Part shown: in pieces, positions 784 to 39,900 of the stretch
How positions within the stretch are numbered: position 1 is the first letter of the stretch
Layout of the letters: every line of letters begins with the position of its first letter
Origin: Owenia fusiformis
Lineage: Eukaryota > Annelida > Polychaeta > Sabellida > Oweniidae
Assembly: GCA_903813345.2 (NCBI GenBank)
Contig: CAIIXF020000004.1
Coordinates: forward strand, 7,647,525-7,711,524
Direction: 5' to 3'
Length of the DNA: 64,000 bases
The notes under the pieces: generated by a model
The model's input: the letters and a program-made list of their open reading frames with translations, nothing else
Told to the model about the DNA's origin: nothing
Database searches by the model: none
Program-made: the position numbers and the translations under genes

Positions 784-932
784 CATCTATCAGTGATGGA
801 AGATATGTTAAAGGATTATCTTCTAGGAGAACATCTACTGCTAGTGGGCAACCAGGGTGTCGGCAAGAACAAGATAATAGATAGGTTCTTATACCTGTTG
901 AATAGACCAAGGGAATACCTTCAGTTACATAG
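784..932 (+). CDS. VWA8: VWA8 in-window exon 1 (Walker A of AAA module 3)
   Basis: A pyrimidine-rich acceptor ending at 783 precedes the frame HLSVMEDMLKDYLLGEH, then GNQGVGKNKIIDRFL, and the exon ends in phase 2 (ag|gtgagt at 932/933). The lysine of GVGKN is the P-loop lysine. The last 62 nt of this exon plus the donor are the seed of the 77-bp tandem array that follows at once. Confidence 0.95.
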
Positions 933-3900
933 GTGAGTGGGAGGGGGAAGATAATAGATAGGTTCTTATACCTGTTGAATAGACCAAGGGAATACCTTCA
1001 GTTACATAGGTGAGTGGGAGGGGGAAGATAATAGATAGGTTCTTATACCTGTTGAATAGACCAAGGGAATACCTTCAGTTACATAGGTGAGTGGGAGGGG
1101 GAAGATAATAGATAGGTTCTTTTACCTGTTGAATAGACCAAGGGAATACCTTCAGTTACATAGGTGATTGGGAGGGGGAAGATAATAGATAGGTTCTTTA
1201 ACTGTTGAATAGACCAAGGGAATACCTTCAGTTACATAGGTGAGTGGGAAGGGGAAGATAATAGATAGGTTCTTATACCTGTTGAATAGACCAAGGGAAT
1301 ACCTTCAGTTACATAGGTGAGTGGGAAGGGGAAGATAATAGATAGGTTCTTATACCTGTTGAATAGATCAAGGGAATACCTTCAGTTACATAGGTGAGTG
1401 GGAAGGGGAAGATAATAGATAGGTTCTTATACCTGTTGAATAGATCAAGGGAATACCTTCAGTTACATAGGTGAGTGGGAAGGGGAAGATAATAGATAGG
1501 TTCTTATACCTGTTGAATAGATCAAGGGAATACCTTCAGTTACATAGGTGATTGGGAGGGGGAAGATAATAGATAGGTTCTTTTACCTGTTGAATAGACC
1601 AAGGGAATACCTTCAGTTACATAGGTGATTGGGAGGGGGAAGATAATAGATAGGTTCTTTAACTGTTGAATAGACCAAGGGAATACCTTCAGTTACATAG
1701 GTGAGTGGGAAGGGGAAGATAATAGATAGGTTCTTATACCTGTTGAATAGACCAAGGGAATACCTTCAGTTACATAGGTGAGTGGGAGGGGGAAGATAAT
1801 AGATAGGTTCTTATACCTGTTGAATAGACCAAGGGAATACCTTCAGTTACATAGGTGAGTGGGAAGGGGAAGATAATAGATAGGTTCTTATACCTGTTGA
1901 ATAGACCAAGGGAATACCTTCAGTTACATAGGTGATTGGGAGGGGGAAGAGAATAGATAGGTTCTTATACCTGTTGAATAGATCAAGGGAATACCTTCAG
2001 TTACATAGGTGAGTGGGAGGGGGAAGATAATAGATAGGTTCTTTTACCTGTTGAATAGACCAAGGGAATACCTTCAGTTACATAGGTGATTGGGAGGGGG
2101 AAGATAATAGATATGTTCTTTAACTGTTGAATAGACCAAGGGAATACCTTCAGTTACATAGGTGAGTGGGAAGGGGAAGATAATAGATAGGTTCTTATAC
2201 CTGTTGAATAGACCAAGGGAATACCTTCAGTTACATAGGTGAGTGGGAGGGGGAAGATAATAGATAGGTTCTTATACCTGTTGAATAGACCAAGGGAATA
2301 CCTTCAGTTACATAGGTGAGTGGGAAGGGGAAGGTGTAGATAGGTTCTTATACCTGTTGAATAGACCAAGGGAATACCTTCAGTTACATAGGTGAGTGGG
2401 AGGGGGAATATAATAGATAGGTACTTATACCTGTTGAATAGACCAAGGCAATACCTTCAGTTACATAGGTGAGTGGGAAGGGGAAGATAATAGATAGGTT
2501 CTTATACCTGTTGAATAGACCAAGGGAATACCTTCAGTTACATAGGTGAGTGGGAGGGGGAAGATAATAGATAGGTTCTTATACCTGTTGAATAGACCAA
2601 GGGAATACCTTCAGTTACATAGGTGATTGGGAGGGGGAAGATAATAGATAGGTTCTTTAACTGTTGAATAGACCAAGGGAATACCTTCAGTTACATAGGT
2701 GAGTGGGAAGGGGAAGATAATAGATAGGTTCTTATACCTGTTGAATAGACCAAGGGAATACCTTCAGTTACATAGGTGAGTGGGAGGGGGAATATAATAG
2801 ATAGGTACTTATACCTGTTGAATAGACCAAGGGAATACCTTCAATTACATAGGTGAGTGGGAAGGGGAAGATAATAGATAGGTTCTTATACCTGTTGAAT
2901 AGACCAAGGGAATACCTTCAGTTACATAGGTGAGTGGGAGGGGGAATATAATAGATAGGTACTTATACCTGTTGAATAGACCAAGGGAATACCTTCAGTT
3001 ACATAGGTGAGTGGGAGGGTTAAGATAATAGATAGGTTCTTATACCTGTTGAATAGACCAAGGGAATACCTTCAGTTACATAGGTGATTGGGAGGGGGAA
3101 GATAATAGATAGGTTCTTATACCTGTTGAATAGACCAAGGGAATACCTTCAGTTACATAGGTGAGTGGGAAGGGGAAGGTGTAGATAGGTTCTTATACCT
3201 GTTGAATAGACCAAGGGAATACCTTCAGTTACATAGGTGAGTGGGAGGGGGAATATAATAGATAGGTACTTATACCTGTTGAATAGACCAAGGCAATACC
3301 TTCAGTTACATAGGTGAGTGGGAAGGGGAAGATAATAGATAGGTTCTTATACCTGTTGAATAGACCAAGGGAATACCTTCAGTTACATAGGTGAGTGGGA
3401 GGGGGAATATAATAGATAGGTACTTATACCTGTTGAATAGACCAAGGGAATACCTTCAGTTACATAGGTGAGTGGGAGGGGGAAGATAATAGATAGGTTC
3501 TTATACCTGTTGAATAGACCAAGGGAATACCTTCAGTTACATAGGTGATTGGGAGGGGGAAGATAATAGATAGGTTCTTTAACTGTTGAATAGACCAAGG
3601 GAATACCTTCAGTTACATAGGTGAGTGGGAAGGGGAAGATAATAGATAGGTTCTTATACCTGTTGAATAGACCAAGGGAATACCTTCAGTTACATAGGTG
3701 AGTGGGAGGGGGAATATAATAGATAGGTACTTATACCTGTTGAATAGACCAAGGGAATACCTTCAATTACATAGGTGAGTGGGAAGGGGAAGATAATAGA
3801 TAGGTTCTTATACCTGTTGAATAGACCAAGGGAATACCTTCAGTTACATAGGTGAGTGGGAGGGGGAATATAATAGATAGGTACTTATACCTGTTGAATA

Positions 3901-6900
3901 GACCAAGGGAGTACCTTCAGTTACATAGGTGAGTGGGAGGGGGAAGATAATAGATAGGTTCTTATACCTGTTGAATAGACCAAGGGAATACCTTCAGTTA
4001 CATAGGTGATTGGGAGGGGGAAGATAATAGATAGGTTCTTTAACTGTTGAATAGACCAAGGGAATACCTTCAGTTACATAGGTGAGTGGGAAGGGGAAGA
4101 TAACTAGACATGTAAATTGAACAAGTTCAATTTAAGACTCCAGATTTAATTCTTTTTTTAAGCTGAGTCATCCAGAATACTTGTAAGCTGAGTCATCCAG
4201 AATAAGCTGATCGAGTCAGCTAGTATTTAGACATTTAGACAACTCTCCATTTTTTATCTTCGACTTCATTGGCTTAACATGGGGATATCATCATATCGAC
4301 TTTTCGAGACTTCAAACCGCTATAACTATCTAACCAGAAGTTAGATTGTATTTTGGTTTAAAGATTCGGACTCCTGAGAAAATTCTACCCTTAATTCATA
4401 ACTCATACATTAAATTTGGAGATTTTTTTATTTTGACCTACTTTTTGGACACCATATCTCAAAAGTGGGTCAAAATACTTTCTGACGGCAAAAGGCTATC
4501 ACTATAAGCACACTCTTTGCTACCTGTATACAAAATTTCGAAGCAAATCATTAAAGTGTAATGTCAGAATCGCAAAAATAAGGAAAATTATGAATTTGCC
4601 CTAGATTTTGACCTTGGCATTTTGATGTCCAAATTTTAAAGCTAGATAGCCTTCGAGGTCCCCTTCTTTTAAAGGCTTTCAGAATGTTAAGCTGTACTCA
4701 GTCTATATCTGGTATTTTAGACTTCAAAAAAATCTTTTTCCCTATTGACATAACATGTGGCACCAAATTTAGCAATTTTCGAGCTTTCAAAACGCTATAA
4801 CTTTCGAACAGAAAGTCGGATCGAAATTTGGTTTGCAGATTCAGATTCCTCAGAAAATTCTATCCTTATTTCATAACTCATATGCTAAATTCGGAGAACT
4901 TTTATTTTGACCTACTTTTCGGACACCATATCTCAAAAGTGGGTCAAAATACTCTCTGACGGCAAAAGGCTAACACTATTAGCACACTCTTTGCTACCTG
5001 TATACAAAATTTTGAAGCAAATCCTAAAAGTGTAGTGCCAGAATCGCAAAAATAAGGAAAAACTATGAATTTGACCTAGATTTTGACCTAGGCATTTTGG
5101 TGTCCAAATATTGAAACTAGGTAGCTCTTGAGGTCCCCTTCTTTTCTAGGCATTCATTATGTTAAGCTGTACTCAGTCTATATCTTGTATTTTACACTTC
5201 GAAAAAGTCTTTTTTCCCATTGGCTTAACATGGGCACCAAATTTAGCGATTTTTGAGATTTCAAAACACAATAACTTCCGAACCGGAAGTCGGATCGAAA
5301 TTTTGTTTGCAGATTCGGATTCCTGAGATAATTCTACACTTATATGATGATTCACAGTAGAATTTGGAGAACTTTTTATGTTCTGACCTACTTTTCGGAC
5401 ACCATATCTCAAAATCGGTAAGAGTAATCAAGAAACGGTTTACCATTCGTAATAAGCTTTTTCTAAGGAACATGATGGAAAAAACCCGGAGTGAAAATAT
5501 TGAAGGATGACTGAGAAAACTTGTAAAATAGTGAAAAACCACGATTTGACCTAGTTCTTGACCTTTGACCTAGATAAAAAGTTGACCTAATTTCCCAGAA
5601 ACTAGGCCTCATTACCTAGTTGACTGTGTTAGCAGATTTAAGTAAGTCCTTCTAGTTACCGAGAAAACGTGACAAGAGAGAAAGAATAATAACTAGATTT
5701 TGGAAATTGAACGAGTTCAATTTCAGACTCCAGATCTAGACTTTTTTTTAGCCGAGTCATCCAGAATAAGCCAAGTCATCCAAAATAAGCTAAGTCATCC
5801 AGCAAAAGATGGATGGATGGATGGATGGATGGATGGATGAAAAAGGAAGGAAGGAAGGATAGGATAGAATAGGAAGGAACGATAGGATAGAATAGGAAGA
5901 AGATATAAGAATAGAAAGGATAGGAAGGAGAGGATACGAAGCAAGGGTAGATAGGAAGGATAGGATAGGATCAGAAAGGAAGGATGGATGCATTTTTCAA
6001 TATTTTCTTCTCTACTCTTGACTTTCTATCAGGATACCATCAGATCGATTTTTCCTGAAATTTCAAAACGCCATAACTTCCGAACCGGTAGTCGGATCGA
6101 AATTTGATTTGCAGATTCGGATTCCTGACAAAATTCTACCCCTAATTTATAACTCATACGTTAAATTTGGCGAATTTTTATTTTGACCTACTTTTCGGAC
6201 ACGCCATAACTTCGGAACCGGAAGTCGAATCGAAATTTAGTTTGCAGATTCGGATTTCTGAGAAAATTCTATTGCTAATTCATAACTCAAACGTTAAATT
6301 TGGAGAACTTTTTATTTTGACCTACTTTTCGGACACCATATCTCAAAAGTGGGTCAAAATACTTTCTGACGGCAAAAGGCTAACGCTATAAGCACACTTT
6401 TGGCTACATGTATAGACAATTTCGAGGAATATAATTAAAGTGTAGTGTCAGAATCGCAAAAATAAGGATAAACTATGAATTTGACCTAGATTTTGACCTA
6501 GGGATTTTGGTGTTCAAATTTTGAAGTTAGGTAGCCTTCGAGGTTCCCTTCTTTCATAGGCTTTCATTATTTTAAGCTGTACTTAGTCTATATCTCGTAT
6601 TTTACACTTCAAAAAAATCTTTTTTCCCATTGACATAACACGGGGCACCAAATTTAGCGATTTTTGAGCTTTCAAAATGTCATAACTTCCGAACTGGAAG
6701 TCGGATCGAAATTTGGTTTGCAGATTCGGATTCCTGAGAAAATTCTATACTTTGTTCATAACTCACACGTTAAATTTGGAGATTTTTTTATTTTGACCTA
6801 CTTTTCGGACACCATATCTCAAAAGTGGGGCAAAATACTTTCTGACGGCAAAAGGCTAACACTATTAGCACACTCTTGGCTACATGTATACAAAATTTCG

Positions 6901-9900
6901 AAGAATATAATTAATCTGTAGTGTCAGAATAGCAAAAATAAGGAAACACTTTGAATTTGACCTAGATTTTGACCTAGGCATTTTGCTGTCCAAATTTTGA
7001 AGCGTTTTCAGATTCGGAATCCTGAGAAAATATCCTATAAGACTAACATTCAAGACATTTGATTCGGAGAACTTTTTTTTGGACCTCGTTTTCGGACACT
7101 GATATCTCGAAATCGGTTTGAGATATCAAAAATCTAAATCGACCCTAGATTTCCTACTTTTTTATGAGGAACACAATGAAAAAAACCCGGATCGAAAATA
7201 TTGAAGGACGACCGAGAAAATCGAAAAAAGTGACAAAGTACTGGATTTGACCTAGTTCTTGACCTTCGACCTAGATAAAAATTTGATCCAATTTCCGAGG
7301 AACTAGATACTGGACCTAAATTGACAAAATGATTGACTTTACTGAAGACCTTATGGTTATTGAGAAAACTGGTTTAGAAAAAGAATAATAACTAGATTTT
7401 GGAAATTGAACGAGTTCAATTTCAGACTCCAGATCTAGACTTTTTTTAGCCGAGTCATCCAGAATAAGCCAAGTCATCCAAAATAAGCTAAGTCATCCAG
7501 CAAAAGATGGATGGATGGATGGATGAAAAAGGAAGGAAGGATAGGATAGAATAGGAAGGAACGATAGGATAGAATAGGAAAGAAGGATAGAATAGAATAG
7601 GAAGAAGGGATAGAATAGGAAGGAGAGGAAACGAAGCAAGGGTAGATAGGAAGGATAGGATAGGATCAGAAAGGAAGGATGGATGCATTTTTCAATATTT
7701 TCTTCTCTACTCTTGACTCTTAACTCATACGTTAAATTTGGCGAATTTTTATTTTGACCTACTTTTCGGACATGCCATAACTTTGGAACCGGAAGTCGGA
7801 TCGACATTTGGTTTGCAGATTCGGATTCCTGACAGAATTCTACCCTTAATTCATAACTCATATATTCAATTTGGAGAACTTTTTATTTTGACCTACTTTT
7901 CGGACACCATATCTCAAAAGTGGGTCAAAATACTTTCTGACGGCAAAAGGCTAACACTATTAGCGTACTCTTGGCTACATGTATACAAAATTTCGAAGAA
8001 TATAATTAATCTGTAGTGTCAGAATCGCAAAAATAAGGAAAAACTTTGAATTTGACCTAGATTTTGACCTAGGGATTTTGGTGTCCAAATTTTGAAGTTA
8101 GGTAGCCTTCGAGGTTCCCTTCTTTCATAGGCTTTCATTATTTTAAGCTATACTTAGTCTATATCTCGTATTTTACACTTCAAAAAAATCTTTTTTCCCA
8201 TTGACATAACACGGGGCACCAAATTTAGCGATTTTTGAGTTTTCAAAATGTCATAACTTCCGAACTGGAAGTCGGATCGAAATTTGGTTTGCAGATTCAG
8301 ATTCCTGAGAAAATTCTATACTTAGTTCATAACTCACACATTAAATTTGGAGAATGTTTTATTTTGACCTACTTTTCGGACACCATATCTCAAAAGTGGG
8401 GCAAAATACTTTCTGACGGCAAAAGGCTAACACTATTAGCGCACTCTTGGCTACATGTATACAAAATTTCGAAGAATATAATTAATCTGTAGTGTCAGAA
8501 TAGCAAAAATAAGGAAAAACTTTGAATTTGACCTAGATTTTGACCTAGGCATTTTGGTGTCCAAATTTTGAAGCTAGATGGCTTTTGAGGTCCCATTCTT
8601 TTAAAAGCTTTCATTATATTTAGCTGAACTCAGTCTATATTTCGTATTTTTCACTTCAAAAAAATCTTTTTTCCCATTGACTTAACATGGGCACCAAATT
8701 TAGCGATTTTTGAGCTTTCAAAACGCCATAACTTCCGAACCGGAAGTCTGATATAATTTTGGTTTTCAGATTCGGAATCCTGAGAAAATATTCTATAAGA
8801 CTAATATCCTAGACATTTGATTCGGAGAACTTTTTTTTGGACCTCGTTTTCGGACACTGATATCTCGAAATCGGTTTGAGATATCAAAAAACTAAATCGA
8901 CCCTAGATTTCCTACTTTTTTATGAGGAACACAATGAAAAAAACCCGGATCGAAAATATTGAAGGACGACCGAGAAAATCGAAAAAAGTGACAAAGTACT
9001 GGATTTGACCTAGTTCTTGACCTTTGACCTAGATAAAAATTTGACCCAATTTCCGAGGAACTAGATACTGGACCTAAATTGACCAAATGATTGACTTTAC
9101 TGAAGACCTTATGGTTATTGAGAAAACTGGTTTAGAAAAAGAATAATAAGAATAAGAATAAGAAGAAAACTGACGAAAACAATAGACTCCAGATTTCATC
9201 TGGAGTCTAATAATAAGAAGAAGAAGAAAACTGACGAAAACAATAGACTCCAGATTTCATCTGGAGTCTAATAATAATAAGAAAACCGGCAAAAGCAATA
9301 GACTCCAGATTTTCAATCTGGAGTCTAATAAATAGGTTCTTATACCTGTTGAATAGACCAAGGGAATACCTTCAGTTACATAGGTGAGTGGGAGAGGATC
9401 ATACACCTCTCTGGACCTCAACAGTCGACATCATTCATGGGGTCGCTGAATGTGAGGCCTCTTTTTGGACCTCAACAGTCGACATCATTCATGGGGTCGC
9501 TGAATGTGAGGCCTCTTTTTGGACCTCAATAGTCGACATCATTCATGGGGTCGCTGAATGTGAGGCCTCTCTTTGGACCTCAACAGTCGACATCATTCAT
9601 GGGGTCGCTGAATGTGAGGCCTCTCTTTGGACTTCAACAGTCGACATCATTCATGGGGTCGCTGAATGTGAGGCCTCTTTTTGGACCTCAACAGTCTACA
9701 TCATTCATGGGGTCACTGAATGTGAGGCCTCTCTTTGGACCTCAATTGCAACATCATCTATGGGGTCACTGAATGTGAGGCCTCTCTTTGGACCTCAACA
9801 GTCGACATCATTCATGAGGTTACTGAATGTGAGGCCTCTCTTTGGGCCTCAACAGTCGACATCATTCATGAGGTCACTGAATGTGAGGCCTCTCTTTGGA

Positions 9901-12900
9901 CCTCAACAGTCGACATCATTCATGAGGTCACTGAATGTGAGGCCTCTCTTTGGACCTCAACAGTCGACATCATTCATCGGGTCGCTGAATGTGAGGCCTC
10001 TCTTTGGACCTCAACAGTCGACATCATTCATGGGGTCGCTGAATGTGAGGGGCCTCTTTGGACCTCAACAGTGGATATCATTCATTGGGTCACTGAATGT
10101 GAGGCCTCTCTTTGGACCTCAACAGTCGACATCATTCATCGGGTCGCTGAATGTGAGGCCTCTCTTTGGACCTCAACAGTCGACATCATTCATGGGGTCG
10201 CTGAATGTGAGGCCTCTCTTTGGACCTCAACAGTCGACATCATTCATGGGGTTGCTGAATGTGAGGCCTCTCTTTGGACCTCAACAGTCAACATCATCTA
10301 TGGGGTCGCTGAATGTGAGGGGCCTCTTTGGACCTTAACAGTCGACATCATTCATGGGGTCGCTGAATGTGAGGCATTCAAGGCAACTGGCTCACTAAAA
10401 TTTTGATTAAAAGTTTTGAATCTCATCCAGAGACCTCTCTTTGGACTTCAACAGTCAACATCATTCATGGGGTCGCTGAATGTGAGGCCTCTCTTTGGAC
10501 CTCAACAGTCTACATCATTCATGGGGTCGCTGAATGTGAGGCCTCTCTTTGGACCTCAACAGTCGACATCATTCATGGGGTCGCTGAATGTGAGGCCTCT
10601 TTTTGGACCTCAACAGTCTACATCATACATCGGGTCGCTGAATGTGAGGCCTCTCTTTGGACCTCAACAGTCGACATCATTCATGGGGTCGCTGAATGTG
10701 AGGCCTCTTTTTGGACCTCAACAGTCTACATCATTCATGGGGTCGCTGAATGTGAGGCCTCTCTTTGGACCTCAACAGTCAACATCATTCATGGGGTTGC
10801 TGCATGTGAGGCCTCTCTTTGGACCTCAACAGTCGACATCATTCATGGGGTCGCTGAATGTGAGGCCTCTTTTTTGACCTCAACAGTCTACATCATTCAT
10901 GGGGTCGCTGAATATGAGGCCTCTCTTTGGACCTCAACAGTCGACATCATTCATGGGGTTGCTGAATGTGAGGCCTCTCTTTGGACCTCAACAGTCGACA
11001 TCATTCATGGGGTTGCTGAATGTGAGGCCTCTCTTTGGACCTCAACAGTCGACATCATTCATGGGGTCGCTGAATGTGAGGCCTCTCTTTGGACCTCAAC
11101 AGTCTACATCATTCATGAGGTCACTGAATGTGAGGCCTCTCTTTGGACCTCAACAGTCGACATCATTCATCGGGTCGCTGAATGTGAGGCCTCTCTTTGG
11201 ACCTCAACAGTCGACATCGTTCATGGGGTCGCTGAATGTGAGGGGCCTCTTTGGACCTCAACAGTGGATATCATTCATTGGGTCACTGAATGTGAGGCCT
11301 CTCTTTGGACCTCAACAGTCGACATCATTCATCGGGTCGCTGAATGTGAGGCCTCTCTTTGGACCTCAACAGTCGACATCATTCATGGGGTTGCTGAATG
11401 TGAGGCCTCTCTTTGGACCTCAACAGTCAACATCATCTATGGGGTCGCTGAATGTGAGGGGCCTCTTTGGACCTTAACAGTTGACATCATTCATGGGGTC
11501 GCTGAATGTGAGGCATTCAAGGCAACTGGCTCACTAAAATTTTGATTAAAAGTTTTGAATCTCATCCAGAGACCTCTCTTTGGACTTCAACAGTCAACAT
11601 CATTCATGGGGTCGCTGAATGTGAGGCCTCTCTTTGGACCTCAACAGTCTACATCATTCATGGGGTCGCTGAATGTGAGGCCTCTCTTTGGACCTCAACA
11701 GTCGACATCATTCATGGAGTCGCTGAATGTGAGGCCTCTATTTGGACCTCAACAGTCTACATCATTCATCGAGTCGCTGAATGTGAGGCCTCTCTTTGGA
11801 CCTCAACAGTCGACATCATTCATGGGGTCGCTGAATGTGAGGCCTCTTTTTGGACCTCAACAGTCTACATCATTCATGGGGTCGCTGAATGTGAGGCCTC
11901 TCTTTGGACCTCAACAGTCAACATCATTCATGGGGTTGCTGCATGTGAGGCCTCTCTTTGGACCTCAACAGTTGACATCATTCATGGGGTCGCTGAATGT
12001 GAGGCCTCTTTTTGGACCTCAACAGTCTACATCATTTATGGGGTCGCTGAATATGAGGCCTCTCTTTGGACCTCAACAGTCGACATCATTCATGGGGTTG
12101 CTGAATGTGAGGCCTCTCTTTGGACCTCAACAGTCGACATCATTCATGGGGTCGCTGAATGTGAGGCATTCAAGGCAACTGCCTCACTAGAATTTTGATT
12201 AAAAGTTTTGAATCTCATCCAAAATAGTCTTCCATTAGATTTTCATTTGGTTGCTTCATCAACACATATGGAATGTTAGAGAAAAACATACTTATTGATT
12301 ATTGATACTTTTACCATGAGTTTTCTACCTTGAACTTTCCAAATATGACGAGTGTATACTTATTAGTCCTTGTTTTTTAGTCATGAAAATTCAAAGATAA
12401 AATATGACAATTTCATACTTTTTCATAAATCAACCAAAATTTCCTTTGTAGTTCTATAATATTGAGAGGTCTAAGAAAATGCTGAATATGCCATTTTGTT
12501 CCGACAAAGTTCAGAAAGACATCTTATTTCATTCTCAAGAATTGGTAGAAAGGAACAAAGAACAATTGTACTAAAAAATAAAAAATGTTAACAAAAACAG
12601 TTAAACATATATAAAATATGTTTTTTACAGAATGTTTTCAATAATTGGTTTAAGAGAAAAGCATTATTGAATTCAGTTCACCATATCGATACCTATCCTT
12701 TGAAGGTAAAATATGACAATTTTATACATTGAACCCCCTGTAAATATATGTTCATATATATTCAGGGATACAACAGTACAGACTCTGACCCTGCAGCCCA
12801 CGGTGCAAGATGGTGTCATTGTGTATGAAGACTCTCCCTTGGTAAGTCAACTTTAACTTAATGATGTACCAAGGCAACCGTTAATCACCTTGTAATATAC

Positions 12901-15900
12901 GTTTTTGCGTTGAACCAGATCTAAGGAGTAAGCTAAAACAATTTCAATTTTTGAATATTTTTGGATCATATGATTCCTTGTCATATCTATTTTACAAAAA
13001 TCCCAGAAGTGCATACTTTATTCCAGCAAACCTAAATATATTTATTTTTTCCTATGTTATGGTTTCTATTTTTATTATTTGGGAAAAATAATAAATTCTT
13101 AATAACTTCACCAATTCATAACATATTAAAGATCTTTTGGTATAATATTTTATCGTATGATCTGTAAAATGAAGCCTTCTGATTGGTCAGTTTGTGCTGT
13201 ACCAATCTGTATTGCTACTAAGATTGTCCCCATTGATCATCGCCGTCGCAATACAGAAAATATTGGTACTGAGGGGACATTCTCAGTATTATACAGAAGA
13301 TTACACGATAAAAACGTTATAGTATGATTTGAAGTGCAATACAGGATATAGTCTGCTCTCGATATTCTGTATTGGCACTCGACTTCGTCTCGTTCCAGTA
13401 CGGAATCTCTCAAGCAGAATATATCCTGCATTGCACTTCAAACCATTCAATAACTTATAGTATTTGAGCTTGTAAGGAATACATTAGTAGGTCAATTGAA
13501 CATATTGCTTGCAATTTTGTCACCCTATATAGATCTGATTCTGGCTTTAAAGGATGTTGTCCTCTCGAGTATTCTTTGTTGAAATACATTATACATTTGA
13601 AGCTGTAAAGCAATCACTGGCTGTCTGGTGATAGGCAATTAAGTGCTTTAATCACCTATACAGAATCTTATACTGTCTTTGACACATTTTGTGGAATTCA
13701 ATAAGTTAATCAGTACATTGCACCTGATACTTCAATTTTCCAGTGGTGACATCGCCACTTTAAAGAGCCAATAGTTGGATATATATCCCATAACGGGGGG
13801 TATATAGGGAACATCTTCATCTGCCTGTCTGTTAATAAATGGTCAGATGATTAACCTAAACTACGGAGCTCCGACCATTATTGGCCTCTACAGTTCATTC
13901 AGTTAAAAAACTTGTTCAGTTCGGTTTTTAACCGAATATGCCCTATAAATATGCAAGTTCTGCTTGTCATCATAGTGTCATTGTTTTCATAATAGGTGCG
14001 TGCAGTAAAGTTAGGACGCATTCTTAGTCATAGATGAAGCAGACAAGGCTCCAACTAATGTCACATGTATTCTTAAGACACATTGTAATTGTGTATAATG
14101 TAATTCCATCATAGGTGCGTGCAGTAAAGTTAGGCCACATTCTAGTCATAGATGAAGCAGACAAGGCTCCAACTAATGTCAAATGTTTTCTTAAGACACA
14201 TTGTAATTGTGTATAATGTAATTCCATCATAGGTGCATGCAGTAAAGTTAGGACGCATTCTAGTCATAGATGAAGCAGACAAGGCTCCAACTAATGTCAC
14301 ATGTATTCTTAAGACACTTGTCATAATTGTGTATAATGTAATTCCATCATAGGTGCGTGCAGTAAAGTTTGGACACATTCTAGTCATAGATGAAGCAGAC
14401 AAGGCTCCAACTAATGTCAAATGTTTTCTTAAGACACATTGTAATTGTGTATAATGTAATTCCATCATAGGTGCATGCAGTAAAGTTAGGACACATTCTA
14501 GTCATAGATGAAGCAGACAAGGCTCCAACTAATGTCACATGTATTCTTAAGACACTTGTCATAATTGTGTATAATGTAATTCCATCATAGGTGCGTGCAG
14601 TAAAGTTAGGACACATTCTAGTCATAGATGAAGCAGACAAGGCTCCAACTAATGTCACATGTATTCTTAAGACACTCGTTGAATCCGGAGAAATGCATTT
14701 AGCTGATGGTAGAAGAATTGTCAGTGGTATTTATGTTTTATATTTCCTACTACATGTATAATCTATGTATTATGTATAATGTAAAGAAAATAAATGAGCT
14801 ATAAAAGCCGAAAAAGCGCTGCAAGTTGCTATGCTATTAAAATATTCTCTAGCTCATTGTGGTATTCTCTTGCTAAATGATAAACTCTAGCTCATTGGTG
14901 TATAATATTCTTTTTCCAATGGTGAAGTCTAGCTCTTTGATGTACAGCATTGATAAAGTCTAGCTCATTGATGCACATCATTGATAAAGTCTAGCTCTTT
15001 GATGTACAGCATTGATAAAGTCTAGCTCTTTGATGTACAGCATTGATAAAGCCAAGCTCATTGATGCACATCATTGATAAAGCCTAGCTCATTGATGTTC
15101 AGTTTAATTGATAAAAAGTGTAACTTGATGATGTTCTGCATTCTCTTGTTCATTAACTTAAGCTCATTCATGTATACTATTTCATTGCTCAGAGATTAAC
15201 TCAAGCTCCTTGATTTATCCTCAAGCTCATTGATTTATCCTCAAGGTCATTGATTTATCCTCAAGCTCCTTGATTTATTCTTAAGCTCTTTGATTTCTAT
15301 TTCAGCACACTCAGGAATTCCCAGCAGTGAGAAAGTGATAGTAGCTCACCCAGACTTCAGAATGTTTATTCTCGCCAATAGGCCAGGGTTCCCTTTCCTG
15401 GGAAATGATTTCTTTGGTGCTATGGGTAAGTAATACCTCTCTTGTCTTGGTTTAATGGGTAATACATCTCTTGCTTCAATACTATGAGTATCAAGCAAAA
15501 CCTCTCTTACTTTGGCCATATGGGTAAGCAATACGTCTTTTGCATTTGTGTTATGTGTGATACATCTCTCAATTTGGTGTTATGCAGAAGCAAGTCCCCG
15601 ATTTCATTTGTGGTATGGGTATTACCTCTATTACTTAAGTAATGTGGGAAAATGTGTACATTCTTGTTTTGTAATCATAGGTAATAGTCTAGATGCGAGT
15701 AGAAATAATCTTGATTTGCGTAGTTAAAAATTCACAATTCATTGATCGTTAGATCCTAGAAATGTGGTTTTGAAAATAGTTTATCAATTTTGAAAATTTA
15801 ATTTTCTTTAAAAATGTGACTTCTAGGTCGGGGAGATTCCCCATAGACCCCATGTTGTAAAACCACAAAAAGTGAAATATCTTTTCTTGTTTTGGGCAGA

Positions 15901-18900
15901 TAATATTTTCTTTCACTGGACATATTTTAATTTGTATAACTATCACATACATAAGGGTAATGTGAAAAGTGAACCACTAAAACTGATGAATATTCAAGTT
16001 AAAGGGAATTTTGTAATACCCTGCCATATTATTTCCCCCGAATCAGCCACCTGGTGGCGAAACTGGTAACTACCTACTCGCATCTGAGTAATTCTTCTTC
16101 CTTTGGTGCCAAGGGCTAAGTATTTCTTATCTTTTTTTTTTAATTGTACTTGTGATACCTCTCTAATTTTTGTATGACGGATGTGCCCTCTAAAATACTT
16201 TGGTTTTGAAGGACTACATAAATATGAAATGTGAAGAAACACTTGTATGTTGCTAGTGGCATCTATACTCAAGTAAATTGATATTTGTGAAGACTCATAT
16301 AGACAGATAGATGGCAGTTCAATATTTCCTTTTGTGGATTGTACTTCACATCTGTCTCATTGGTTCATGGGTAAATATTGCTGTATCAAAACTTCAAAAC
16401 ACTATATGAATCAAAATCATAACAAATTTTCTCTTCAGAATTATTTACTTACAATTGTTTTAAGTCAGTATCATAAGGTTTTGGATATTTTCAATGTTGA
16501 TCTTGGGATATTTTTGGAAAAATCTTTACATGCACATGTTAAAATTACAATTAGACCAACTGAATTCTGTGCCATCTATTGACAGTCCTTAAGGCCATTC
16601 ATGAACATGAGAAAGCACCTTTCTATTTGCACTCATTGATGTTAGGTTGTTCGCTGAACTTTTTCTAAATGATGTTGATTTGAAGATAACATTATGATGG
16701 TGTAGACCCCCTTTGGTTAAGATATTTAAAAGTTCAGTTCTAATGCAATATCGTTTTCAAGTTACATAAATACTCATCATGTGACATTACTTTTAAGGTG
16801 ACATAATTCACTGCTCATGTGACATTACTATTCATGTGACATAATTGACTGCTTATGTGACATTAATTTTCAGGTGACATAATTCACTGTTCATGTGACA
16901 TTACTATTTATGTGGCATAATTCACTGCTCGCATGACATTACTTTTCATGCAATGTGACATAATTCACTGCTAATGTGGCTTTACTTTTTCATGTGACAT
17001 AATTCAATCCTCAATCCTCATGTGACATAACTCACTGCTCGTGTGACATTAATTTTCAGGTGACATATTCAGTGCTCATGCAGTTGACAACCCAAACATT
17101 GACTCTGAGATGGCAATGCTACGACAATACGGGCCAGATGTTGAGGAACATATACTTCGCAAATTGGTCCTTGCAATTGGAGAATTACGAGATATGGCTG
17201 ACCAGGGACTCATATCATATCCTTACTCCACTAGGGAGGTTGTCAATATGGTGAAACATTTACAGGTACAGCATTTGAATTATTTCAATTTCCTTTAAAT
17301 GCAAAAAAGAAATAAAGTTAGCTGCAAAGGCATACATGTTTTGTTGATTCAACACTCTGAATTGTATATGAATGCAACAAAATGGCAGTTCCTTCAAATT
17401 TTGAATAAGAGAGAGTCACATGGAAAATGAAAACATTTGTGAACCATCATGTCCCACCTGTCCATCCAGTGATACTAGAATATCATGAATGGATTTTACT
17501 CTAAGTTCTTGTATTTTCACTCAATAAGAACATTTGTTAAAATATTTTGCATATAATGTGTTCTAATCATTTCTAAGTGTAAGTCTATGTAATTTGCAGC
17601 ATGTAATCTGTCAGTTTGTTTTCAAAATATTCAGCATCTTTTGGAAAAAATTTAATGATACACTTTAATTTCACGTAAAAATGCAATATTGCTTATGATT
17701 TTCTGAAGTATATAGATCTACTTCCTCAACTTGTTATTTTCAGAAATTTCCAAATGAAGGGTTATCAAATGTTGTTCGCAACGTGTTCGACTTTGACAGT
17801 TACAATGAAGAACTACAAGAAACCATAGTAAAAACCCTACAAAAACACGGAATCCCAATTGGAGCGAAACCAACCAATGTGGAGCTGGCCAAAGAGTAAG
17901 AACACAGCCGTTAGGCTCAAGAATATTACAGTAAAACCTGTGTTATGTGAACACCTATTGGACTCAGGAACTTTTTGGACTTCCTTATGTACAGTAAAAC
18001 CTGTCTAAGTGAACACCTTCTTGTGAATATGAACAAACTCCTGAAGAATTCATATTTCCCATTTGATTGATACTGTAAATGTCCAACCTCTAAAGGCCCA
18101 TCTTTAGATCAACTTTCAAAGTTATTCAAAACTAAGGGTGCTAACTATACACAGGTTTCACTGTAATTCATTTTGTATAATAAATGCAACTATAATTACT
18201 CTAAAGCAGGTGGAAATTTCCCTCTTGATGGAGAAATCCATGGAAAATTCCAGCGATTGCCTCCATGCTGGTGGAAAATTCCAGCCTTATGGAAAATTCC
18301 ATCATGGGTAATAATTCTATTTCCATTATTATTATAACATATACCTCAAAATTTTGTTGCACAGATAATATTTAAGATAACTAATGCTTGGAATTAAAGT
18401 TCACAATTACCTCAAATTATGCACTTTGTTTATTTTAATATACCATAAGAATGAAAAATGTAAGAGAAAAGAAATGTAATGTACTATATTTATTAATAAA
18501 ATATTTGTAATAAAACAATATAATGTTAAGTATACATATAAGACATCTTTTTACAAATAATGCAGTCCCAATTTATTTGAAACATACATGTAGGAACAAA
18601 TCCTACGCTAAGGGCTGATGGGAAAAAGTCACTCCACCTCAGTGGGAATTGAACCCACAGCATGTCCCAATAATAAACATTGGCATTTTCAAGGAATGCA
18701 GAGGTCTGATCTTTCAAAGGACCATGACTAATATATTATTTTATGTATAGAATACCTCAGACTTCAAATCAAGAATATTTCATGAGTTTCTTGGCTTGCA
18801 TTATATTTCGAGAATTCTTGCTTTTATGTCTTTGAGTCACATTACATTTATGCTTCGTCAGTGATCTTCCCAACATTAAAGCAAGTGTTTCACCCACGTG

Positions 18901-24900: not shown

Positions 24901-27900
24901 TCAATGCATCCGCCTTTCACCTTCACAATCACATGGGGACGAGAACTGAACTGGTCAATGGCGCGATCCAGCAGTTCTTGTGGTAGTCGTCTCCACTTAT
25001 CCTGCAGAACTTCTTATAGTTGATCAATAATTTGTGGGGTATAACCATTAACTACAATACATTGCTCCAGGTGCCCCCATGTGTGATAGTCCCAGGGGTT
25101 GGCATCTGGTGTATTGGGTGGCCATTCGACTTAGGACTAATCTTCTTCAAAAGGGACATCTTTCAAGAATGGGGGCTCTTTCAGCCCCAAGTGATTACAT
25201 ATTCCAGCAGGATAGCGCTCCTGACCATAGGCCAAAAGTCACTATGGAATATCTGGAGCAAAATACCCCTTGATTCATTAGTCCTGATGAATAGTCGCCC
25301 AATACACCACTTAACAAAGATTGCAGCAGATTTAGTGAACATAATAAATGTTCTATCGATGATCACATAAAATTATAGAAAATCACATTTTCTGGGAAAA
25401 TCGGTAAATCTCGGACACATGAACAATTTACCATTAATATTCAAACATCTGACAAAAAAAATTGAAGTCAGTATTAGCTTGGGTATTTGAATGGTAAAAT
25501 ATGCCTATCCTTAAGTTTCTGTAAAAAAAATTTCATGTCAATACCATAATGTTATGATACTTTTTTTGCCTTCTAAAAAGGTTGCAAAATTTTTTGGCCC
25601 ATCCTGTACATGTACTGTGTTCGGATTGGCTGAAATCAGACGCATCTTGCCAAGCTATGTGTGAACAATTTTAAAGATCTTAATCGAATGATACTTGTTG
25701 GTAGTGAATTCCAGTCATTAATAATCAGATGAATTTTGAGGTCTTTTTCTACTTTCACTGACTTATTTATCTTTTGACAGGTTCCCACTTCCAGCGTTTC
25801 AACTGTCAGGCCAATGGAATATTGCAAGACAAGGGGGTCGTACCAAAACTGGATTGATACATTGTCCTTCAGAATCAAAAACATTAAGAATAAAGGTGAG
25901 TCCACATACTGTACAATGTCAAATTGAAGTGTCATGAATCATTTTTCTAAAAAAATAACTCATGTTAACACTTCTAGTTCATGAAAACATATGTCGCTTA
26001 GCTCGCCTCTAAAAAGGACATGGAACCTCGTATAAGGACTTTTGTTCCCAGACTATGTAAACAAAACCCATTTGCCAAATTAATTTGTCCTCCGGGGCCT
26101 AGCCTTAGTACCAACCCAGACTTATGATTTAACTTTCCTCAATAATAACATCATATATTTTTCCATTCAAAAAAGCAACTGTAACCCAGATTTATCCTTG
26201 AAAAAAAACTATTTTTCATTAGATTCCAGTCAGATCGAGTACATGTAGCTACCCAGACCTATCATCAAACTACGATTTTTTACTATGGCCAGTCATAATA
26301 GCTACTCATACCTATTATATAACTGAATTTCTGTTTTCCATTATAGGGGCCAGTAAGAGTAGCTACCCAGACATTTCCTTTGGAGAGATCAGAAGCCAGA
26401 TCAGAACACTTCACAGAACAAGAAGCTTACTGGACCATACCACTTGATGATACCAACATTATAGCAGATGTGGCTGTTTGCCAAGGTACAGTGTTACAAT
26501 AGAATGCATTTAATTTAGTTAATGGAGTATTGGTGAAGTTGTCCAGGGATTGAGGTCTCCATGGATTGAGTTGTCATGGAAATGAGTGATGAGGGATGAT
26601 TTTTGGGGATGATTTTTCAAGGGAATGAGTTTTCATTGGGATGGGCTGTCTAGCGTCTAGGGGATGAGTTGTCCATTGAATGAGTTGTCTAGTTGATGAG
26701 TTGTCCAGGGTATGAGTTGTCCAGTGAATGAGTTGTCCAGTGATCGAGTTGTCCAGTGAATGAGTTGTTATGAGGATGAATTGCCATGGAGATGAACCGT
26801 CTGAGGATGAGTTGTCATGGGGATGCATTGTCTGAGGATGAGTTGTCTAGGGGTTCAGTGGATTTAAAGATATTTATGCTCATTTGAGGACAAAGTGATA
26901 GTTCAGAATGACAACAATATTCTCACCTCCCCTGTTGAAGAGCTCCAATTCCGGCAACAGATATTTTACATCCGGGTTTTTTCCCCATTGAAATATACTG
27001 AGTCCAATTTTGAATATTGGATATTTGGATATTTGCACAATGGATAAAATATAGGTCCTTATGGCAATCTGCAAAGCTTTTTCACGAATATTTTTCAAAA
27101 CTGACAATAATCATGAAATGTTCTACGGTGACGTCACTGACTTAGTTCCCGGAAGCTGAGAATCGATGACTCGATATGAAAAAGAAGAAGTTCTCGTGTA
27201 TATACCGCGGGTTTGGGGTCATGTTTAAATATGTTTGACTTATATCAATTGTGAGGGTTGTAACTTGAAATTAGTATGACCTTTATCGTCCCGACAATAC
27301 GCAAAAACATGGTTTTAAGGTTGGTAGAATTTGGTTTAATCAACGGACCAATGAAAATTTGTCCCACTTGAAGTGATGCATTGCGGGAGATATTTATGTT
27401 AATGACCATGTTTTCGTCTATCGCATATTAGTCTATTGAATTGCATTTAATATGATTTTTCAAATATTTGATTATAAAATATCTTGATTCGTTTATCAGT
27501 ATTTGTATTTCAATATTATATTCATGAATTTCAGCTAAGTATCGCCATGCAAGTCAAACTGATGACATCATACACGTTGTGACCTGCAATCCGATTGGTT
27601 TATACACCATGACGCCAAACAGCAGATTCATATCGCATATTGACCTTTACGATGTGTTTCCAATGGGCCTTGGGGTACACAGATCGTTGAAGCCAAAAGT
27701 AAAGCTCGCCACTCTTGGTGCGTCACTGAATGACTGTGTGATTCTCCATGAAGAAAGCGTGAGTTTTTATTCATCACTTTGTATCTTGTAAACATTACTT
27801 TTTATGTCAGGACCAGAAGTGGTGACATATTGTTATACTGTTCAACCTTTTTTTGTGGCCAGTGTTCAGCATCTATAATAGCAGTCTACTTCTGTAACAA

Positions 27901-30900: not shown

Positions 30901-33900
30901 GTCATGGTAACGAGGGAAACATATGCCTCTATAGCGCTTGGCTTCCCGGATCTTGATGTGAGTTGCTCAAATAATTTTATTGTCTAAAGTAGAGAAAGAG
31001 GAGGCTAGTTAAATGGCATCATGGTGGCACTGAGCTTAGAGGCTTCTCCTTTGAGGGAGACAATGGGTACAACTGATGTGGTGACGTAACTATGACGTCA
31101 CATGGCCTCACCAAATTCCATCCACTTACCAAGCCACTCTTTCTTGGTGGGGAGATTTTGTCATGGCAATGCCTTGTATAATCGTGGATTGATAATATAT
31201 CCAATAAAAGAGGGCATATTATATACTGCATCATTGATTGCGTTACATAGTAAAACCTGTCATATTAAACACCTCTCTCTAATGAACACTTGTCCCTTGT
31301 AAACACAATTTCTCAGAACATATTCCATTGTTAAACTGACTGTACCAAAAAAGGTGAAATATTTTTAACAAATATAATATTCATATTGCTTTTCCTCTCT
31401 TTAGACAGACTTAGATATCTACACTCTACCAAGGGAAGAACTCCCGCAGGTGAATAAAAACATCTCTAAGGATCAGTTCGCAGCCATTTTGAATCGTCCT
31501 CCTTCTGCTAATGCTAAATCGGGTATTGTATACCTCCCCGATTCTGGAATGGTTATACGTGCGCTACCAACTTGGAAGGTACCAACAAAAGTCTTCCCTG
31601 GAGGTACGTTACATTTCAAATTGTTACGTAATATGTTGTTATGCTAATTAATGCTATATAATATGTTTTCATGTTATGTTGTTCACCCAAAATAGAATTA
31701 ATAACATTTGTTTTATTATTTATTGTTAATATTCCTCTGTTTCAATAATTGAATAATAAAATATTGATATCTAATTAATGATAACAATGTACTGTATCTT
31801 AATGAATAAAAATATATAAAACAGAACACATATCCAGGGATATGTAAAATTAAAGTTATGAATACACTGCCTGGGAATTTTTTTTTTCTTTATTTTTTTT
31901 TTTTATGGGAATATCATTTTAAAATATTTCCTAGTCATGAATACAGCCGGGGAATATCTCATCTTATTTCCCAGTCATGTGTAGAACATAGACCAGGTTA
32001 AATTAAATTAAATTAATTAAAGGTGCAATAATTAGTGCAGAGGGGTCATTCAACGATCATAGACCAGTGTCAAAATATATTTAAGTTTGGATATTTCATC
32101 AAGACTAACATCTATTTTTATTATCTACAAAGAAACCCCTTAGATAAACATTATTTTAGCTGATATTCCTCTTGAAACATGGTGGATCTTAAAAATATAA
32201 AAGTGGAAGTCCCCTTTTTGAAGCTTTGAACTGAATTTACACTTCTTAATGCTGAAATTGATAATTTATCCATACATTTTAAGAAAATAGGTATGTCAAA
32301 GAAGATGTTAAACCAAATGTTGCCTTGATAGCTCAGAAAAAATGAAAAAACGTTCCTATTTTCTCTACAGTCCTTATTGCCCCTTTAAATTCAATTTCAA
32401 TTTATTCATACATTCAATCATTATGTTTAAAGATATTATTTACAAAAGGTGGCACCATGGGTGATGCTTATGCCCATACATGTGGTACATGTATATGATT
32501 AAGTTGGAATTGAATTGAATGATATTAAAAACAATTTTTGCTTGTTTTCATTAAAGTGAATCTGTACAAGTAAACAACCCTTTAATGTGAATACTGAATA
32601 CAGTTTGCAAAATTCACTTTAGGCAGTTTTTATTCTAATCTCCACTACAATATTATTTTCCAGGAGCAAAACCACAGGGTCTTACTGGTTATTTGGAAAT
32701 AACAGATTTAGCCAATCATAAATTGAGATACATCCCAGTGCCAGGGTAAGTGACTAATCACAAGCTCAGATACATTCAAATTCGAGGGTAAGTAACCAAT
32801 CACAAGCTCAGATGCATTCAAGTTCTAAGGTAGGCAACCAATCACAAGCTCAGATGCATTCAAGTTCTAGGGTAGGCAACCAATCACAAGCTCAGATGCA
32901 TTCTCTAGGGTAAGTGACCAATCTCAAGCTAAAATACATTCAAGTTCTGGGGTACATCTGTATTTGACCAATCACAAGTTCAGAATTATTCAAGTTCTTG
33001 GGTAAGTAGCCAATCACAAGCTCAGATGTACCCTAGTGTCAAATTCTGACTAACATATGTTAAGTTAACTCCTTTATATCTTGGTATTTTCACTCTTTTC
33101 TACTCTACATGTTCTATGTTCTTTCTCAGCATATTCTAAAATTAACCATATTTGGAATATTCATGGAGTATTAAGTAAAAAATAAAATGCAATAGAAATC
33201 CAAGAGAACACTGATGCACAATATTCTGCATCTGTATTTCCAGTGCAAGACACCAGTCTCCCTACACCAATTGGATGTCTTCAAATTCAGACGTCAGTCT
33301 TGTCATGGCCAATCTTTCCAATGACAACGTAGTCACGGTTGATGCAGGAGGGTGTGTCAGGCTGTGGGAGACTGTATTGGTCCATCTTGAAAAATCAATG
33401 CAACAGTGGAGGAATATGATTGGTCAGGATGATGGCCGACCATTACAGATTACGCACGAACGTCCCCCGAGTGATAAAGAACTAGGTGGTCCAAAACATG
33501 GAAAAACAGATCCGACAGGTTTTTGTATTTGTATTGCATTATTCGTTGAGTTTTTGAGGTATGGTGTCTTAATGTTAAAATTTGTGAAAGTTCAAAGTAG
33601 GGTGAGTGGTTATTGGTGAAGAATGTGAATTTTTAATTCAATGGAAAAGCTTGTCAAGGTTTTTTAGACTCATTAAATGAGGGGGGATGGATTAAACCAA
33701 AATGGAATTAATTGTTCTGTTTTTGTACAACTTTTATCATTTGGATAGCATCTAATTGAAACCCCATGCTTAAATTAACAAAAATGTAATTTATTATGTC
33801 ATTACCAGAAGCATGGGCTTGCAAGAGAAAGTTTTCTATTGAAAGCCCATGCCAGAAGTGAAGACATATCGTATAGTCTCTAACTTTTTTGTGGATGTCC

Positions 33901-36900: not shown

Positions 36901-39900
36901 TGCTGCTCTTATCAAAAGAGCAAGCTTCGTTTAATAATTTTATCATAATATTGTTTTCAAATATATTGTATAATGTGCCCCATAAGCCTAAAATAGGCTG
37001 GGTATTCTATACGAGGCACTTAAATAAATAAATATACACTACTTTGAGGTACGAAAGATATTCCAATTACAAAGTTTCTTATAATTTCAGATTGCGTGAG
37101 ATAAAGATGTCGGAGTATGATGGGGAGTTATACGAGGTGTATTCAAAGAGTGTGAGGAAACAAGTGACATCTCTTAGGGTCATACTGGAGAGTCTGCAGG
37201 TAATGCATCGATCACATAAGCTCTGATTCATCGGCCTGCGCCAGGCCGATTCATTAATTTTTGAACAAAATGCTCAATCGGCTGGGTGCAGGCTCATGAA
37301 TCGGAGCTTATGTGAGCTAGGGATTAACAAATTTATAAGTATCATTGATAGGGGACATTATCTTAAATTCAAAATTGCTAATTATTTTATTCTCAATGGT
37401 CGGGGATAATTTAGATTGGACAAGAAAAATGTCAGGGAATTTTCCAACACTCTTAAAAATTAATTACTTGAGTATTTTCCAAGTATTTCCCAAGTATAAA
37501 AATTACTTAAAGTTAAATACTTAGTTTTACTTCATTTTACTTAGGTTTAACTTATATTGTCATTTTGAGTTTTTTAATTGCTTAATTATGTAAATGAGTA
37601 TTACAATTACTACAGTAAGTATTTCAATTTCTCTCCTTGCATTAGTAAATTCACCATAAATGGATTACTTAAAAATTACTTAAAAATTTTTCAGTAGTTC
37701 AAGATTATTTAAGTAATTTTTGACTTAAAATGAGTAGTACAATTTCTCAATATAAGGAAATCCAAGTAATAATTTTTAAGAGTGAATGTTCAAAATGAGT
37801 ATGACCTATACTGTTTGTACAGTAAAGAAGTACAGCGTTTCAATTCTTCAAATTCTCTAGGCTAAGGGTAAAGAGAGACAATGGTTGAAACACCAACAAC
37901 ATGGAGACCTTGATGATGCTAAGCTCATTGAAGGAATAACTGGAGAGAAGTCAATCTACAGAAGGAGGGGTGAACAGGATCCAGAGGTATTCATTTGTAT
38001 TATGTCACCACCACAAGTGGTGACATATTGGTGGTGACATATTGTTATAGTCTTCAACTGTTTTGTGGACAGTGTTCAGCATCTGCAACAAATGGTGTGT
38101 ATAACAATTATCAGCATCTGTAACAAATGGCAGGTGGTAAAATTGTGCATGTTAATGCCTTGTTTACTTTTTATTGGAGGTTATGCAACAATTTTCACAG
38201 AAATTGTGCATGACTGTGTAATAAATGTGTAATATTATGGCCTGCAGGGAAATACTGTTCCCCTTTCTTGGGGTTTTTCCAGAGACTTAATGTCAACTAT
38301 TTTTGTTATACCTTTATACTCAATCAGGCAAGAAGATACAACAGAGTGGATAACTAATCCCGAAGTACTATAGTTCTACACATTTAATTTACATACAAGT
38401 TCACTTAAAAGCATGTGGCATTATTAGCTCCCAATTATCACTTAGAAATAGTTACACACTTATTTAACCACTCTATTTTTGAGACCGGTGTCAGTATTTG
38501 GTGTCAGAGTATTGTGTCTGTAACAAATTATATTTTTTATTAACAGTGACACTGAAATATTTTAGACTAATAAACAGGAATCACCATAGTAACTGGTTGC
38601 AAAAGTAACAAATACATTAACAAGGTTACATGTTGCTATAATAAATACATTAACACCACAGATACAAGGTCTATCCTATAGTAAAAATAAATTACCATAA
38701 ACACTGATTTGTATAGCAAATATATTTCTCATTACTCTTAGACACTATTATCTAGTTGCTATAGAAACAACATATACTTTCAGATGGGGACCCCACAACA
38801 GAAACCCAAACTTTTGAAGCTGGTTGTCGATGTCTCTGGAAGCATGTACAGGTTTGATGGACATGATAAAAGACTGGAGCGCTCAATGGAAGCATGTCTT
38901 ATGGTCATGGAGGCCTTTGAGAATTATGAACAGAAATTTAAGGTTAATAACTATTTTAAAGTTACTTCATCTCTTGTTTTATAGCCCCCCCCCCCCTTGT
39001 ATAGCCCAGCAAAATATATTATGGTCATGGAGGCCTTTGAGAATTACGAACAGAAATTTAAGGTTAATAACTTAACTATTTTGAAGTTATTTATCTCTTG
39101 TTATTTCAACAGGGGGATATGGTAATGGTACATGGTGGCATGTAACACGATTTTATTTGACAAAAATTTGTAATGGTAAAAGCATGTAATTAAAATCTTA
39201 CCAAACTCCCATTGGTTCTACTGTAGCTGTTATCTTAGGGTGATAACCTATAAATAGCAATTTACCCATTCTAGTTTGACTAATAAAAGTTGACCTTTAA
39301 TTCAGGTCACCTAATCATGGGTCGTCAAGGCCGTCACATCAGCCAAATGCCCTAAAACACCAAATTCCTAGATATTGACCTCTGACTTTGTAATGACATT
39401 GACCCATAAAGTTGACCTTGACACAGCAGCCCCCAAATGTCTTTGGAATGACCTTGACCTCTCAGGAGTGAACATCAATGAACAGAGTGAAAAATTATTG
39501 CGATGTATGGAGACTTTATTGATAATGCATTCGAAAATATGAACCCACCTGAAGTTCAACATTCCTGATGAATCAAACTGGTCAATAAGTGTTATGTATG
39601 TGAATTATATATAGTTTATCTTGTATACTTGATTGTATAATGGTAGCATTATGTAGTAAATTAAGTGTAGTGTAGTTAGGTTATGGATAAACTATCCATA
39701 CTAGATTTTGGGAGGAATAATAGCTGGGTGCCTTAAGCCAGTAAAAATGGTTTATCTAACTTTAACCTCACACTGACTCATATGAAAAGTAAATGGCCCA
39801 CACAATTTTAGAAAATGGGTGTATTTAGTTCAGCCTCATTGCACTGTATGTAACAGGTCAGGTACAGTTTAAAGTTTGATTTCCTTTGTGTTTATTATTT

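Follow-up and report, generated by a model that had tools for sequence, protein, structure and literature searches.

The window analyzed here, 64,000 nucleotides (nt) of DNA from Owenia fusiformis (contig C4, bases 7,647,525-7,711,524, in an assembly of 498 Mb), opens within the gene VWA8 and carries its 3' part on the forward strand, modeled as 25 exons that run from 784-932 to 53103-53211, are all AG/GT-bordered, and together present 49 splice boundaries. At seven of these boundaries the exon end is captured, together with its splice site, in a tandem array. The exons were built from splice signals and a protein guide, a human VWA8 sequence that we take to be accurate; joined, they form a single open frame of 3459 nt terminated by a stop, whose product matches the Pfam family AAA_5 and aligns with the human guide from approximately residue 759 to the C-terminus. 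A splice aligner given the identical guide reproduced the exons over 25.8-40.9 kb with the exceptions of exons 7, 8, 9, 13, 14, and 23: the weakly conserved exon 13 was split into four short pieces, and the ends of the other five were moved. A search for N-terminal exons in the 20 kb upstream gave no convincing candidate, a solved-structure search with exon 1 returned no match, and an Rfam scan of the window likewise gave no match at gathering scores.

Tandem arrays at VWA8 exon ends

The array-bearing exon ends and the features used below are as follows (window coordinates, all on the + strand):

784..932, +, VWA8 exon 1 (splice sites, reading frame); its last 62 nt plus the donor make up the first unit of the array
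871..4108, +, exon 1 array, 77-bp unit, donor-seeded, 42 contiguous copies (TRF; copy counts)
9326..9397, +, detached 43rd copy of the exon 1 unit, about 5.2-5.3 kb beyond the contiguous array
13988..14675, +, exon 3 array, unit of about 119 bp, acceptor-seeded, last copy functional (TRF, copy counts)
14591..14726, +, VWA8 exon 3 (splice sites, reading frame)
15421..15630, +, exon 4 decayed array, 3' of the donor, spacing 29-36 nt and then 95 (missed by TRF)
16754..17080, +, exon 5 array, 38-bp unit, 5' of and including the acceptor (TRF, seed test)
26238..26373, +, exon 8, two decayed copies upstream and the acceptor itself (60-nt seed; weak with the 40-nt seed)
32712..33027, +, exon 16 array, 42-bp unit, donor-seeded (TRF, seed test)
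38901..39105, +, exon 21, two copies of the donor with its flanks, spaced by 120 nt (seed test)

A 40-nt seed with the splice site at its center was scored for each boundary against the adjoining 1.5 kb of intron, with 1500 shuffles (resampled flanks) placing the 99.9% level at a score of 16. Six of the 49 boundaries exceed that level: the donors of exons 1 (score 40), 4 (22), 16 (26), and 21 (29.5), and the acceptors of exons 3 (40) and 5 (31.5). The acceptor of exon 8 scores 13.5 with the 40-nt seed, which is not significant, and 16 with a 60-nt seed (p=0.0002, 5000 resamples), with a second array copy lying closer to the exon; the array is real, decayed, and the weakest of the seven, while the remaining 42 boundaries score at most 13. 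Both kinds of boundary are thus represented, four donors and three acceptors, at the same exons (1, 3, 4, 5, 8, 16, and 21) and with the same exon numbering as in the original prediction, which had been made by a model from the letters and a list of open reading frames. Its further claims about geometry hold at all seven junctions: arrays seeded by 5' splice sites lie downstream and those seeded by 3' splice sites upstream, with the functional copy, as the outermost one, exon-proximal in every array.

The arrays differ widely in dimensions. Counting the functional copy, there are 43 copies spaced by 77 nt at exon 1, 6-7 at 118-120 nt at exon 3, up to 8 at 38 nt at exon 5, 6-7 at 42 nt at exon 16, two at exon 21, and about four, irregularly spaced, at exon 4; the spacings at exon 8 are about 53 and about 61 nt. 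The tandem-repeat finder TRF, which reports 30 arrays in VWA8 in total, detects four of the seven (exons 1, 3, 5, and 16). The exon 1 array shows a higher-order period of six units (461 bp) and retains the donor GT in all 42 contiguous copies, as GTGAGT in 33 and GTGATT in nine. All 43 matches to its unit in the assembly fall at the VWA8 locus, and the array therefore arose in place, out of exon 1 of this gene itself. It is extremely improbable that the arrays are assembly artefacts with inflated or invented copy numbers: long arrays are difficult to assemble at their true copy number and a single assembly was used, but the copies are nonidentical, with a higher-order periodicity, and several genes on different contigs have arrays of this kind at their junctions.

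Further repeats adjoin these features. Between the exon 1 array and the detached copy (window 4251-9061), a 300-nt stretch occurs six times in nested fashion, with spacings of 474-476, 1095, and 1410, and immediately after the detached unit (window 9407-12167) lies a 54-bp minisatellite of 51 copies with a longer repeat within it. A separate 54-bp array in intron 23 (window 50437-51512) comprises 20 copies that are 99% identical, with one frame open for 375 codons.

Junction arrays in other genes and the chance expectation

For comparison we used a blind sample of genes picked without regard to arrays and located by protein matches, namely CCT1-8, HSPD1, CLTC, Na/K-ATPase alpha, VCP, and PSMC1-6, which amounts to 18 genes in 19 regions (CCT6 lying in two) and 357 boundaries. 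An 11-nt CCT4 exon, which is spurious, and two doubtful terminal PSMC6 exons were removed from it, and the acceptance of CCT6 'exon 4' on contig C12 as a junction array was withdrawn, the sequence being in fact one copy within a 104-bp array that runs past the fetched piece. The sample holds 10 junction arrays. The most extensive follows exon 11 of CCT2, where 49 copies of the donor with its flanks, the functional one included, recur at a spacing of about 105 bp and occupy 5.07 kb of the 13.2-kb intron 11; exon 5 of the same gene has 25 copies, mostly spaced by 53 bp, and the others lie at CCT2 exons 2 and 9, CLTC exon 18, PSMC5 exon 7, CCT4 exon 10, TCP1 exon 8, and CCT3 exons 6 and 9. By set, the counts are 9/176 in the CCT set (including the later-dropped CCT6 case), 1/100 in CLTC/ATPase/VCP, and 1/86 in PSMC1-6 (including the doubtful PSMC6 exons).

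The original prediction offered, as one reading of such repetition, that DNA at exon-intron junctions is preferentially amplified by some process and, as a dull alternative, that minisatellites arise everywhere and are recognized only when they include coding sequence. Junction arrays are fairly judged against positions in the same introns that lie where an array begins or ends, so that copies flank them on a single side. Local copies are common in this background: a local copy within 1.5 kb at a score of at least 20 is found for 30% of 5972 positions in VWA8 introns, 25% of 9594 in the CCT set, 8.6% of 5744 in CLTC/ATPase/VCP, and 6.0% of 3355 in PSMC1-6. Among the 357 blind boundaries, 10 junction arrays were observed against 9.88 expected at a score of at least 20 (P 0.53), 9 against 6.83 at 25 (P 0.25), and 8 against 4.88 at 30 (P 0.12). 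Nor is there, in the blind genes, a peak of array edges at junctions relative to deep intron: at a score of 25 the edge rate is 2.5% at the junction (9/356, including the false CCT6 exon), compared with 2.0-4.8% deeper in the intron, at 120-260 nt. The proposed junction-directed process is thus unsupported, and the duller account serves better, with the blind count equal to the array-edge expectation.

Several observations weigh against so plain a reading. The junction edge rate is about twice that found 60-80 nt into the intron (1.1%), and the blind ratio of observed to expected climbs with stringency (1.01, 1.32, 1.64). VWA8 itself has 6 junction arrays in 49 boundaries where 1.6 are expected (P=0.006), although the gene was singled out for its arrays, and CCT2 has 4 in 22 where 0.42 are expected; taken together, the two excesses imply that a single uniform rate misfits some genes. 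A position test that includes VWA8 gives 14 against 7.9 at a score of at least 25 and 11 against 5.7 at a score of at least 30 (P=0.03 each). The background is also uneven, since VWA8 and the CCT set are rich in arrays and the two remaining blind sets far poorer.

Counting TRF arrays that overlap a boundary, as against the seed null, also leans toward an excess. Such a comparison of tandem repeats with shuffled positions had been suggested in the original prediction as a genome-wide check; run on the present sample, it gives an excess short of significance in the blind genes (10/67 arrays on a boundary versus 5.9, P=0.08; a CCT8 array among the ten overlaps by about 5 nt only) and a significant one once VWA8 is included (14/97 versus 7.9, P=0.03), VWA8 by itself contributing 4/30 versus 2.0. 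The seed null took the place of an earlier random-placement null (blind 10/67 versus 4.96, P=0.03), which barred long arrays from short introns; the change lowers the excess. No TRF array lies wholly within an exon, either in the blind genes (0/67) or in VWA8 (0/30).

Two further explanations draw on these excesses. If junctions were preferred birthplaces of minisatellites, through splice-signal motifs, R-loops, or the composition step at exon edges, and at a rate some twofold or more above elsewhere, then the VWA8 and TRF excesses and the climbing blind ratio would follow; we judge this improbable in view of the nonsignificant blind result at all three thresholds, a gene bootstrap that spans about 0.3 to 4 (lower bounds 0.3-0.4; upper bounds 2.1, 2.9, and 4.0 at scores 20, 25, and 30), and the lack of a local peak over deep intron. 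Alternatively, certain genes or regions may be hot spots of tandem amplification, such that junction arrays cluster in VWA8 and CCT2 and are absent from others. The CCT2 excess speaks for this, as do the 14 TRF arrays of CCT2 and the 30 of VWA8 beside one in CCT7 and none in PSMC1 and PSMC4, but the genes are few and the per-gene expectations already absorb part of the local array density, and we regard such hot spots as possible and somewhat doubtful. No junction preference is demonstrated; one of up to about twofold is possible, with heterogeneity between genes.

Assembly-wide pattern counts lean in a splice-like direction (donor triple 139 versus 50 reversed; acceptor triple 88 versus 10), but few arrays underlie them, about 17 for the acceptor listing; since the arrays are few and the counts are not normalized to single sites or control arrays, no rate was taken from them, and a first, gapless donor pattern gave 2 matches, too few to inform. 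This pattern search, which was not blind, also led to an exon beginning VYPDPVRVV (C3:24931400-24934000, minus strand) with three upstream acceptor decoys at 54-bp spacing. Its matches to alanyl-tRNA synthetase are weak (PF07973, E 0.034; alaS, E 0.08), and the label, which is probable, is partly our assumption; a solved-structure search with the exon found no match. A different arrangement is seen in Na/K-ATPase alpha (C10:26077305-26083731), where six differing in-frame versions of a 114-nt exon (residues ~130-167), each AG/GT-flanked, likely represent a mutually exclusive exon set.

Decoy splice sites and the proposed origin of the arrays

The additional copies place many potential splice sites beside the authentic ones. 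Were the VWA8 donors bypassed, read-through would meet a stop after 2, 6, 2, and 40 nt (exons 1, 4, 16, and 21), and backward extension from the acceptors would do so after 3, 10, and 3 nt (exons 3, 5, and 8); decoy use at these seven junctions would therefore be predicted to truncate the protein, although such stops are expected, since introns commonly hold them. The exon-proximal sites are presumably those in use, as argued from the coding frame.

In the aligned decoys of seven arrays (among which the 104-bp array of CCT6 has no verified exon) the splice dinucleotide is invariant, an outcome with a chance of 0.15 given column variability, and comparing dinucleotide with column variability in these arrays gives no sign of selection on decoy sites. 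Variability in donor-core versus other columns is 0.031/0.031 in the exon 1 array, 0.019/0.012 at CCT2 exon 11, and 0/0.029 at CCT2 exon 5; in the first two of these the donor core is no less variable than the rest, hence no selection appears to keep it there. Decayed arrays are short of decoy sites, with AG in 3/7 at VWA8 exon 5, GT in 2/3 at VWA8 exon 4, and 0/2 at CCT3 exon 9. There is accordingly no clear sign that decoys are either actively eroded or actively kept, and tolerance of decoy sites, also raised in the original prediction, would fit the DNA, with young arrays retaining their GT/AG decoys.

That the repeated sites are instead used, producing alternative isoforms or slowing splicing, has a precedent in human IFI6 (according to the available portion of PMC4526556) and would agree with the functional donor hexamer being kept in 33/42 exon 1 copies, but given the stops in the extended exons, the variability of the donor core, and the partial loss of sites from decayed arrays we consider it very unlikely.

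In light of these results, we propose as the probable explanation that locally born minisatellites have by chance included an exon end, giving rise in VWA8 of this lophotrochozoan worm to structures of the kind known from lancelets as 'mirages'. Slippage or unequal exchange would duplicate short segments in many introns, and a segment that spans a junction would expand into an array whose exon-proximal copy is still joined to the exon's authentic other end, so that the protein would be unchanged and the array tolerated. Segments within exons would be removed by selection, whereas the farther copies of a junction-spanning one would become intronic decoys, ignored if exon definition favors the site nearest the exon's other end.

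A bolder extension is that thousands of junctions carry near-identical decoy arrays (up to 49 copies, in the essential CCT2), seeded about twice as often as elsewhere, with the spliceosome using the exon-proximal copy only. We hold this to be unlikely; if true, arrays ignored in such numbers would put exon definition to a natural test across the whole genome and would keep in store material from which new exons and introns could arise. In long runs that combine near-identical splice sites with near-identical exonic context, position becomes the isolated variable in splice-site choice, which would make the VWA8 and CCT2 arrays a useful natural experiment if RNA were examined, as RNA reads could show whether only the exon-proximal copy is used. 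It is also important to note that a high tandem-repeat background can largely account for one gene's striking pattern.

Comparison with mirages and related structures

The assembly includes, on contig C1, an ordered Hox cluster with a Lox5-like gene whose homeodomain is followed by a KLTGP parapeptide, which we take to be the Lox5 mark of lophotrochozoans; queries with GFP found no match in the assembly, a miss that proves little. In the available portion of its description, the Owenia fusiformis genome comprises 505.8 Mb in 12 chromosome-scale scaffolds, with 11 Hox genes, all of which except Post1 form a cluster on chromosome 1 (PMC9977687).

Mirages, in which an exon-intron boundary is tandemly duplicated, have been reported from globin genes of lancelets, where RT-PCR (reverse-transcription PCR) suggests regular splicing and where Adh3 is cited as a further case (PMC3087553, available sections); a second report, likewise available in part, finds that the Adh and TnC mirages give no aberrant mRNAs and adds PGBD5 (PMC3902484). 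The defining feature, a repeat unit spanning an exon-intron boundary, is found at 6 of the 49 VWA8 boundaries plus the decayed one, and at 10 of the 357 in the blind sample. Undisturbed regular splicing and copy numbers that differ among haplotypes or cells also count among the marks of a mirage. As far as the accessible text of these two papers goes, the worm arrays share with lancelet mirages minisatellite-sized units across a donor or acceptor, AG/GT decoys in many copies, a functional exon-proximal copy, and both kinds of boundary. They differ in reaching 43 and 49 copies, versus 3 and 6 in the globin gene BflGb6, and in being known here from DNA, whereas the globin mirages are backed by RT-PCR; the published hosts are cephalochordates and the present one is a lophotrochozoan, host being no structural criterion.

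A minisatellite is also known at an exon end of human IFI6, with multiple splice donors, for which Turri 1995 is reportedly the original account. There, two repeat units located downstream act as donors (PMC4526556; also cited in PMC2572611; both available in part). Both systems thus have a 5' splice site tandemly repeated where an exon ends, but on these partial texts the IFI6 units are used as donors, whereas any use of a decoy in worm VWA8 is predicted to bring a stop. Introns gained when AG/GT segments are tandemly duplicated (Rogers 1989 and subsequent work, as cited in the available part of PMC3087553) likewise rest on duplications that carry splice signals; unlike those cases, the worm arrays show no new intron, and existing introns lengthen instead.

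A literature search for junction arrays in annelids and other animals returned only the lancelets and human IFI6, a weak negative that leaves subscription literature largely uncovered, and minisatellites reported in earthworm metallothionein introns include none at splice junctions in the portion of text available (PMC12783039). The present analysis extends the mirage type of structure to a lophotrochozoan, together with a rate from a blind sample (10/357 junctions). The worm arrays correspond to this known structure; what they add is its occurrence in this phylum, an estimate that close to 3% of junctions are affected, and extreme cases, among them the 49 donor copies after CCT2 exon 11.

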